Below are positions 22,618-24,372 of a DNA stretch of 24,372 nt, piece by piece. The number at the start of each line of letters is the position of its first letter. Position 1 is the stretch's first letter. The notes beneath the pieces were generated by a model, which worked only from the letters and a program-made list of their open reading frames with translations, was not told the origin of the DNA and made no database searches. The stretch covers positions 1 through 24,372 of the IMG/VR virus record IMGVR_UViG_3300045974_000269. One strand, given 5' to 3'. The position numbers were made by a program, and so were the translations under genes. Source of the DNA: a virus.

Positions 22618-23001
22618 CTAAGCCTCCCCGTGGTCTTCGTTGAGTGTGAACACGTCGATCAGCAAACGCGGCTTGACCGTGTCGAACTTCTTTCGCAGCA
22701 CCAGCAACTCGACCTGCCGGTCGTTGAGATACGCGCCCTTTGGGCCTGCCAGCGCGTCAAGGATCAACTTCGTCGGGCCGTCCAGATCCATCAGGGGATG
22801 CGCGAGGTACAAGACGACCTCGACGCCGACGGCCTCGCCGGTTGGCGCGCGGTAGCCGGCCGCGACCATGGCCGCGCGCGTCCGGTACGCAATGCGCCCC
22901 TGGAAATCGACAGCCTCGCGCGACTTGAAGATCCCGCGGCCGCCTCGATACGTCCCGTTGACCGATACGGTCCGGCCAGGAACGACGACGTGCACCCTCA
23001 C
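22618..23001 (-). CDS. rusA: RusA-type Holliday junction resolvase
   Basis: 127-aa protein from a GTG at 23001 overlapping the previous stop (GTGA); a longer frame upstream only overlaps the preceding gene. The family layout is clear: N-terminal VVPGRTVSVNGTYRGGRG (7-23) and a catalytic block MDLDGPTKLILDAL (71-84) with Asp72, Asp74 and Lys78, then GAYLNDRQVELL with Asp94. These match the E. coli RusA catalytic Asp70, Asp72, Asp91 and Lys76 with a small offset. The enzyme cuts four-way junctions; in phages it clears branches before packaging or aids recombination. Confidence 0.9.
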   Translation of the reverse strand: MRVHVVVPGRTVSVNGTYRGGRGIFKSREAVDFQGRIAYRTRAAMVAAGYRAPTGEAVGVEVVLYLAHPLMDLDGPTKLILDALAGPKGAYLNDRQVELLVLRKKFDTVKPRLLIDVFTLNEDHGEA

Positions 23002-23174
23002 GGCTTGACCCCGAAATCCGGCACGCCGGGAAGCGTCGCGAGCTTGGGCCGGGCGATCCGTACGGCCGCTTGCAGGATCCACGAGAGGGATCGATCCTGC
23101 CGCCGGGCCTCGAGCCGCACCACCTCGAGGACGTCTTCGGGCAGATAGACCGACTGTTTACGCTTGTCGATCAC
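22998..23174 (-). CDS. 58-aa ribbon-helix-helix-like protein
   Basis: Read by hand between RusA and the upstream orphan. It begins at a GTG (23174) overlapping the previous stop (GTGA), and its TGA overlaps the RusA start in the same way. The sequence MIDKRKQSVYLPEDVLEVVR, then LEARRQDRSLSWILQAAVRI, has the order expected of a MetJ/Arc-like protein: a basic beta strand (KRKQSVYL), a first helix (PEDVLEVVRLEARRQ), a turn (DRSL) and a second helix (SWILQAAVRIA). Such proteins bind DNA as dimers, often repressing their own operon. The length of 58 aa is standard. Confidence 0.75.
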   Translation of the reverse strand: MIDKRKQSVYLPEDVLEVVRLEARRQDRSLSWILQAAVRIARPKLATLPGVPDFGVKP

Positions 23175-23479: not shown

Positions 23480-23763
23480 TAGTGCAGCCATCCCTTCCGC
23501 GCGCCGCGCCCGACGTACTCGAGCCGCCTCGAAGGGGGGTTCGCGTCGAGCACCGAGCGGACGACGCGCTCGAAGTGCTCCCGTGGCACGCGCCGGTTCT
23601 CGTGGTCGTCCCGCTCGCGCCGGAAGGCGCGCCGTTCCGACTCGAGCGCCAGCCGCTCGCCCTCGAGCGTCACGAGATCGTCGGCCATGCCGGCCGCCGT
23701 GAAAGACGAGCCGAGCACCCAGCCCGCGCACGCCGCCAAACACACGAGAATCGCCGCCATCAT
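23479..23763 (-). CDS. N-terminally anchored coiled-coil protein
   Basis: 94-aa protein from an ATG at 23763 (ATGA overlap with the upstream gene); a second ATG follows directly. Residues 2-24 are a hydrophobic span (MAAILVCLAACAGWVLGSSF), then a charged heptad-like helix (TLEGERLALESERRAFRRER), ending in a basic tail (GRGARKGWLH). LAAC at residues 9-12 resembles a lipobox but the n-region has no positive charge, so a simple anchor is more likely. The form recalls an i-spanin, yet it sits far from the lysis genes. Function unknown. Confidence 0.65.
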   Translation of the reverse strand: MMAAILVCLAACAGWVLGSSFTAAGMADDLVTLEGERLALESERRAFRRERDDHENRRVPREHFERVVRSVLDANPPSRRLEYVGRGARKGWLH

Positions 23764-24372
23764 AGCGCCACCCCTTGCCCCTCGAGAGGGGCGACACCGT
23801 CCGTTTCTGGGAAGATTCGCCGCAACTCCTCGAGCGTCCGGCCCTCGCCGTCGCGCCATACGTCCGATCGCGGCCCGTCCTGCCACGCGTCCTGGGCCGC
23901 CGGCGAGCGCCGGGCGTCCTGCAGGGGGCCGACGAAGTAGGCCAGCCAACGAGGCTTCGAGCCCGCCTTCGTTGCCGCTTCGGCCGCGACCTCGAGCGCT
24001 CGAGCCAGCCCCAGCCGGGCGACCTCGACGTCGATCTGCTCGCGCACCGTTGCGACCCGGTCAGCGCTGGCGACGCGCATCCAATCCCGGGGCACCGCCA
24101 TCCGGTCGGAGAGCAGGTCGCGAAGCATTGCCCAAGGGGAAGCTTCTGGGGCGGCGCTGGCCGCGGGCTTGCCCGCGGGTACTACTTCCAGATTCCTAAC
24201 ATCAGGATTCCTAACATCAGCCCGGCTCGACAAGACCTTGGCTTCGCCTTGGACAAGCCTAGGCGTGTCCAAGGACATGCCTAGGTCTGTCCCTGCCGGA
24301 TCCCGCTCCACCTGGCCGGGCACCGGATCGGGAATTTCGCTAGGAGCTTCGCGGGGGTGTGGATGCTGGTGT
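23760..24372 (-). CDS. Putative replication protein, 5' end outside window
   Basis: The frame is open from the TGA at 23760 to the right edge, so the N-terminus is missing; a GTG at 24323 is possible but the frame continues upstream in phage-like Pro/Glu-rich sequence. The first part is a flexible linker that contains the DNA repeats (LVQGEAKVLSSRADVRNPDV). The C-terminal part is helical (PWAMLRDLLSDRMAVPRDWM, then LGLARALEVAAEAATKAGSK) and contains KPRWLAYFVGPLQDA, a 'W..YF..pl..A' block similar to the end of phage replication initiator or helicase-loader proteins. The replication role is inferred from this block and from the repeats; moderate confidence only. Confidence 0.6.
   Translation of the reverse strand, partial: HQHPHPREAPSEIPDPVPGQVERDPAGTDLGMSLDTPRLVQGEAKVLSSRADVRNPDVRNLEVVPAGKPAASAAPEASPWAMLRDLLSDRMAVPRDWMRVASADRVATVREQIDVEVARLGLARALEVAAEAATKAGSKPRWLAYFVGPLQDARRSPAAQDAWQDGPRSDVWRDGEGRTLEELRRIFPETDGVAPLEGQGVAL
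24191..24220. repeat. Tandem 15-bp direct repeat
   Basis: GATTCCTAACATCAG occurs twice without a gap (24191-24205 and 24206-24220). It is about 40% GC in a ~67% GC setting. Each copy is five in-frame codons (DVRNP, DVRNL) on the minus strand. Beside the 20-bp palindromes it resembles the easily opened part of a phage origin. Confidence 0.9.
24251..24292. repeat. Two 20-bp palindromic sites, iteron/operator-like
   Basis: Plus-strand 24251-24270 and 24273-24292 both follow GGACA-N-G-CCTAGG-NN-TGTCC, a palindrome with outer arms GGACA/TGTCC and a central CCTAGG. They are separated by 2 bp, giving a 22-bp period (about two helical turns). The first copy extends to a 28-bp near-perfect palindrome (24247-24274) with only one mismatched pair. 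They lie inside the coding sequence of a putative replication gene. They are strong candidates for the binding site of a dimeric protein. Confidence 0.85.

Follow-up and report, generated by a model that had tools for sequence, protein, structure and literature searches.

A putative iteron-type replication origin embedded in the initiator gene of a phage

In bacteriophage lambda the O gene contains, in its middle part, the iterons and an AT-rich tract (PMC7466680), and in pSK41 four Rep boxes are found inside the rep gene, the ori-encoded middle of the protein being a deletable linker (PMC5703833). At the basal unwinding region of bacterial oriC, DnaA boxes are followed by DnaA-trios (PMC10201434).

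The DNA analysed here (the window) is a 24,372-bp viral fragment carrying structural genes (terminase, portal, capsid and others) on the minus strand. At one end of it we found what is most probably, with a probability that we put at about 0.87, a replication origin of the iteron type that lies within the coding sequence for the phage's own initiator. This reading draws on the DNA anatomy, the excess of repeats over what the protein code demands, family conservation, specificity for one gene, the predicted fold of the N-terminal domain and the gene neighbourhood in relatives, all observed computationally. The elements of the locus are the following:

24,324–24,371, minus strand: last 16 residues of the N-terminal winged-helix domain, HQHPHPREAPSEIPDP (HMM and BLAST relatives)
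24,231–24,285, minus strand: five 11-bp iteron units, CCTAGGCATGT, CCTTGGACACG, CCTAGGCTTGT, CCAAGGCGAAG and CCAAGGTCTTG (codon resampling and unit phase)
24,215–24,228, minus strand: GC element and beginning of the unwinding repeat, GAGCCGGGCTGATG (phase of the five CCWWGG hexamers)
24,191–24,220, no strand assigned: 2 x 15-bp perfect tandem repeat, GATTCCTAACATCAG on the plus strand, putative DNA unwinding element (repeat search and stability)
23,760–24,371, minus strand: initiator gene, 3' part (203 codons and stop), the 5' part being lost at the contig end (open frame)
23,760–24,160, minus strand: C-terminal domain of the initiator, whose position makes it the probable helicase-loader-facing domain (role suggested by relatives)
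22,618–23,082, minus strand: RusA-like Holliday junction resolvase, downstream and in the same direction (Pfam RusA, 5.5e-6; PHROG 140)

A BLAST search with HQHPHPREAPSEIPDP retrieved five viral contigs in which this motif is the end of a 110-residue N-terminal domain. The domain is present at 35 loci of IMG/VR and five of GTDB, and in 190 public phage records. Among these proteins, many are annotated as 'replication initiation protein', and the relatives strongly match the PHROG replication-initiation families 16167, 1408, 2149 and 12556; the N-terminal domain and the full relatives gave nothing significant in Pfam, RepA_N (PF06970) included. Only 16 residues of the domain are encoded in the window, and they match positions 94–109 of a family HMM made from 33 relatives (E 1.4e-5, in a single-target search). 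The original prediction that the frame encodes a replication-related product was borne out by this match, since the proteins aligned are annotated as replication initiators and are encoded beside helicase loaders or helicases. The truncated window protein matched no PHROG profile, and no homologue of its C-terminal domain was detectable in phage records, the best in-family scores being not significant.

In the relatives, the initiator gene is immediately followed by a gene for a DnaC- or P-like helicase loader and/or one for a DnaB helicase; a loader gene is present there in HK639, F10, Louie and Mx8. The gene of the lambdoid phage HK639 (L342, 38,384–39,247) sits between the cII region and the P-like gene, which is the position of O in lambda; it is annotated as 'hypothetical protein', falls in phrog_17247 without assigned function, and very probably is an initiator gene. 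In the window, the genes next downstream are a short ORF and then RusA, and genes for a helicase or a loader are not seen, owing to the end of the contig.

AlphaFold gave a confident winged-helix model for the N-terminal domain (mean pLDDT 92), a C-terminal domain predicted to be helical and, between them, a linker predicted to be disordered (pLDDT below 50 for residues 114–183 of the relative L018), so that the protein appears least constrained where the origin-like DNA sits. The best solved matches of the N-terminal model were the staphylococcal RepA_N initiator N-domains 4pt7, 4pql and 5kbj (E about 0.01, TM 0.52), with other winged helices close behind, and many of its structural neighbours are repressors. 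The best explanation of these data is a tripartite initiator, with a winged-helix domain at the N terminus, then a disordered linker, the DNA of which is the putative origin, and finally a variable C-terminal domain. In Pseudomonas phage P27 (L080, 1501–2583) and in Mx8 (L091, 1471–2652), nuclease-like HNH and MUG113/T5orf172 domains interrupt the linker at the place of the relatives' iterons; P27 retains the downstream DSLIPDSLIP repeat, common to JBD44.

The original prediction described two 20-bp palindromes with a 22-bp period, the first of them embedded in a 28-bp near-palindrome. Both were recovered, at 24,251–24,270 and 24,273–24,292, as was the near-palindrome at 24,247–24,274, in which at most two base pairs are mismatched when read from the letters. 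The palindromes are thus real, but the iteron unit is not the 20-bp palindrome, as had been proposed; it is an 11-bp unit, and both palindromes belong to a longer array. In fact, five CCWWGG hexamers start at 24,236, 24,247, 24,258, 24,269 and 24,280, with a spacing of exactly 11 bp, and all of them share one phase (5 mod 11) relative to the GC element. Among 50,000 random recodings of the ORF that followed the codon usage of the phage, none had a chain of five such hexamers and one had a chain of four. No further copy of the palindrome occurs elsewhere in the 24,372 bp with three mismatches allowed (0.08 expected), and within the window none recurs at promoters, as would be the sign of an operator. 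The window iteron found no exact match in IMG/VR. At the opposite end, positions 1–500 have an unusually high GC content (81%) and are the terminus of a large ORF for an Ala/Gly-rich protein, with an 18-bp tandem repeat at 49–89.

The 2 x 15-bp repeat is perfect and, as had been noted, of much lower GC (40% vs 67.6% for the window, in which it has no other occurrence). A calculation of local melting energy, which had been proposed as a check, showed that, of all 30-bp stretches in the 24.4-kb record, the least stable one (rank 1) is in the repeat region and starts at 24,180 (nearest-neighbour mean, -1.22 vs -1.63; sd 0.11). The initiator gene of the window has, therefore, a low-stability candidate unwinding region adjacent to the array; among 60 relatives, the stability minimum of the linker is within the lowest 1% of its own locus in 35.

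The relatives carry both the protein and the DNA pattern, and repeated DNA resembling binding sites was found within the initiator gene in the window as well as in them. Immediately after the N-terminal domain come 11-bp repeats; a GC-rich element (GAGCCSGGC, ATCCTGC) follows in many relatives, and a short tandem repeat comes last. The core of the 11-bp unit varies (CCTAGG, AAGCAC, TCGCGA), the whole unit being, by group, CCWAGGACATG, CAAGCACCATG/AAGAACAGTG, TCGCGAGACNC in actinobacteriophages and CACTGAGCACT in Gsput1. The downstream repeat, with units 5–21 bp long, is likewise specific to groups: CTGATTCC, GGATCTTCG, GGACTCTC, GGGGAACA or GGGAA. The register of the units to an element downstream of them is kept, with 256/264 core motifs of the CTGATTCC group at phase 5 mod 11 to the unwinding repeat (redundant sequences included); in the CCWAGG group, 25 of the 43 units stand at phase 5 relative to the GC element, and 34 do so if a deviation of one base is allowed. 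The linkers of L008, L009 and L017 show very regular 9-bp GGATCTTCG arrays after the iterons, encoding Gly-Ser-Ser repeats and reaching about 140 bp.

To what extent the protein code could generate these repeats was evaluated by synonymous shuffling. The lag spectrum of the linkers of 57 relatives peaked at 11, 22, 33 and 44 bp, with Stouffer Z of 14.5, 12.3, 6.1 and 5.0 (next best lag, 4.7), values which assume independence and are inflated by shared ancestry. Lag 11 was retained without near-duplicates (Z 12.3, 53 relatives) and in the actinobacterial phages alone (Z 4.8), and the 11-bp period thus exceeds synonymous-codon shuffles in phages of both Pseudomonadota and Actinomycetota. At the same lag, the next ORF gave 0.1, the C-terminal domain 0.8 and lambda O -1.4; homologous control regions reached 5.8 (N-terminal domain) and 5.1. 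The N-terminal domain as a negative control is partly contaminated, because in Bernal13 (L343) a second TCGCGA array with 11-bp spacing is found in its coding part, at 35,255–35,282, about 160 bp before the linker array. The initiator gene contains the most 11-bp-periodic stretch of the genome in HK639, Bernal13 and IFTN1; in F10 this stretch is elsewhere, and in F10 and several other relatives the 11-bp signal is weak or absent. As for tandem repeats, 40 of 60 relatives have a significant one in the linker, that is, one reached by no more than 0.5% of synonymous shuffles. The period is divisible by 3 in 24 of these 40; in the other 16 it is 5, 7, 8 or 19 bp and, therefore, not imposed by the protein code.

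The specificity of the repeats for this gene was evaluated by blind scans of IMG/VR. Three CCWWGG-type units at 11 bp were found in 32 contigs, 10 of which have them in the initiator gene, 2–100 bp after the N-terminal domain; with only 10 of 32 blind matches there, CCTAGG by itself does not identify the gene in the way that the downstream repeat does. CCTAGG arrays with 11-bp spacing in which no N-terminal domain was detected (L054, L058, L064, L069 and L076; L057, L062 and L075; L055, L059 and L070) fall into three recurrent sequence contexts, e.g., TTTTCCTAGGACTCTCCTAGGAGTTGCCTAGGAG. Scans for the two commonest downstream repeats gave at least 120 loci each and, among the matches listed, the N-terminal domain was upstream on the same strand in 119/120 and 116/120, and in the same open frame as the repeat in 118/120 and 116/120. 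In four of the five loci without an upstream domain the gene is cut by the stored end, and in the fifth (L241) the domain looks degraded or frameshifted. At 80% DNA identity the loci listed fall into 22 and 64 clusters, with lag-11 Z of 7.0 and 12.3. In 21 cluster representatives, the N-terminal domain has 55% protein identity and the fourfold sites of conserved residues are saturated (27%); the 15 bp beyond the search pattern, belonging to the unwinding repeat, are 73% identical.

One could suppose that the repeats are coding repeats only, produced by slippage in a fast-evolving disordered linker and with no role as DNA. The predicted disorder would fit, and so would the 24 repeats with a period divisible by 3, such as the 9-bp GGATCTTCG array that spells Gly-Ser-Ser. 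However, periods of 5, 7, 8, 11, 19 and 22 bp are impossible to obtain from a protein code, synonymous shuffles were beaten at lags 11, 22 and 33, the DNA of the unwinding repeat is conserved where silent sites are saturated, and the phase between the iterons and the element after them is fixed, all of which makes this explanation very improbable. We consider it similarly hard to sustain that the array is an operator, to which the winged helix of the initiator, or another phage repressor, binds to control transcription. Palindromic CCTAGG and TCGCGA units are what a dimeric winged-helix repressor could recognise, and repressors are common among the structural neighbours of the N-terminal domain; on the other hand, the array occupies a mid-gene position, has no second occurrence in the window and is coupled to a repeat of low stability which, for its part, is found almost only in the initiator gene. 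Autoregulation may nevertheless accompany the origin function. Finally, that the repeats serve DNA packaging, recombination or homing (as a pac site or endonuclease target) instead of initiation is scarcely credible, since the HNH and MUG113/T5orf172 insertions of P27 and Mx8, which might suggest it, are rare exceptions, the terminase genes are located elsewhere and the neighbours in the relatives are helicase loader and helicase genes.

An origin inside the initiator gene is, therefore, the reading that we prefer, and none of the three findings that had been named as evidence against it, namely an unrelated protein, promoter copies of the palindromes, or relatives with the protein and without the DNA pattern, came out, the promoter copies having been looked for within the window. 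GC skew, a further check that had been proposed, was monotonic in the window and end-to-end in the complete genomes of HK639, IFTN1 and F10, with no turn at the Bernal13 gene; monotonic and without a turning point at the gene, it is uninformative on the origin. As regards the mechanism, we infer binding, melting, helicase recruitment and origin activity from the sequence. Each helical turn would offer one palindromic 11-bp unit to an initiator dimer, all of them on the same face of the DNA. Once assembled, this complex would put strain on the adjoining DNA; the low-stability tandem repeat next to the GC-rich element would melt first, and the C-terminal domain would then bring in a helicase loader, from the phage or its host, together with DnaB helicase.

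A broader proposal, which we offer as doubtful, is that these loci represent a widespread class of phage origins set by period and not by sequence. The initiator would polymerise on an 11-bp lattice, with one site per turn and in fixed register with the GC-rich element, and would then capture one strand of the short tandem repeat as single-stranded DNA; in this it would parallel the DnaA-box/DnaA-trio scheme, having arisen in phages with an unrelated protein. In the papers searched (incomplete coverage, with most subscription papers outside it) we found neither a report of the embedded repeats of these initiator genes nor a description of a period kept while the unit sequence changes. To our knowledge, the origins of most temperate phages are unmapped. 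The layout described here predicts the origin to the base in hundreds of phages of Pseudomonas, Escherichia, Bordetella, Vibrio, Acinetobacter, Mycobacterium, Gordonia and others, and gives a likely function to 'hypothetical' initiator genes such as those of HK639 and Charlie. One gene region would be under two codes simultaneously, and the conserved one-turn spacing, combined with a freely changing iteron sequence, offers a clean system to study the co-evolution of initiators and origins; small orthogonal replicons could also come from such origins.

When compared with known systems, the locus resembles the basal unwinding region of oriC in that a short strand-asymmetric repeat, in the region of melting, comes after the double-strand binding sites. 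This is an analogy only, as no DnaA homologue was seen in the initiator gene and the repeat units are of 5–21 bp, not trinucleotides. The four PHROG initiation families include relatives with this DNA layout; PHROG names the proteins. There is also a likeness with lambda O and ori-lambda of the lambdoid and Stx phages, where the origin is in the middle of the initiator gene, iterons are beside a low-stability stretch and, as in the relative HK639, a P-like loader gene comes next. The lambdoid-like architecture of the original prediction is supported, with two corrections: the iteron spacing differs from that of lambda, and the closest solved fold to the binding domain is that of the RepA_N plasmid initiators. 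In lambda, the iterons are 18 bp long at steps of 20, 24 and 23 bp, against 11-bp units in the window, and the O gene shows lags of 23–25 and no lag 11. No PHROG or Pfam match to O was found for the window protein, and the HK639 initiator matches phrog_277 (lambda O) over 32 C-terminal residues only (7e-4); with no homology and a different iteron length, the phage initiator is not in the lambda O family. The winged-helix N-terminal domains of the RepA_N plasmid initiators (pSK41, pTZ2162) and PLE RepA are the closest solved fold. In pSK41 the Rep boxes are inside the initiator gene and the ori-encoded central part is a linker; in the phage relatives it is the linker predicted to be disordered that carries the repeats. 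Nevertheless, the hosts differ, and we withhold assignment to RepA_N because there is no Pfam match and the fold score is moderate (TM 0.52). The simplest account, by analogy, is that the window origin would work like ori-lambda and the pSK41 ori.
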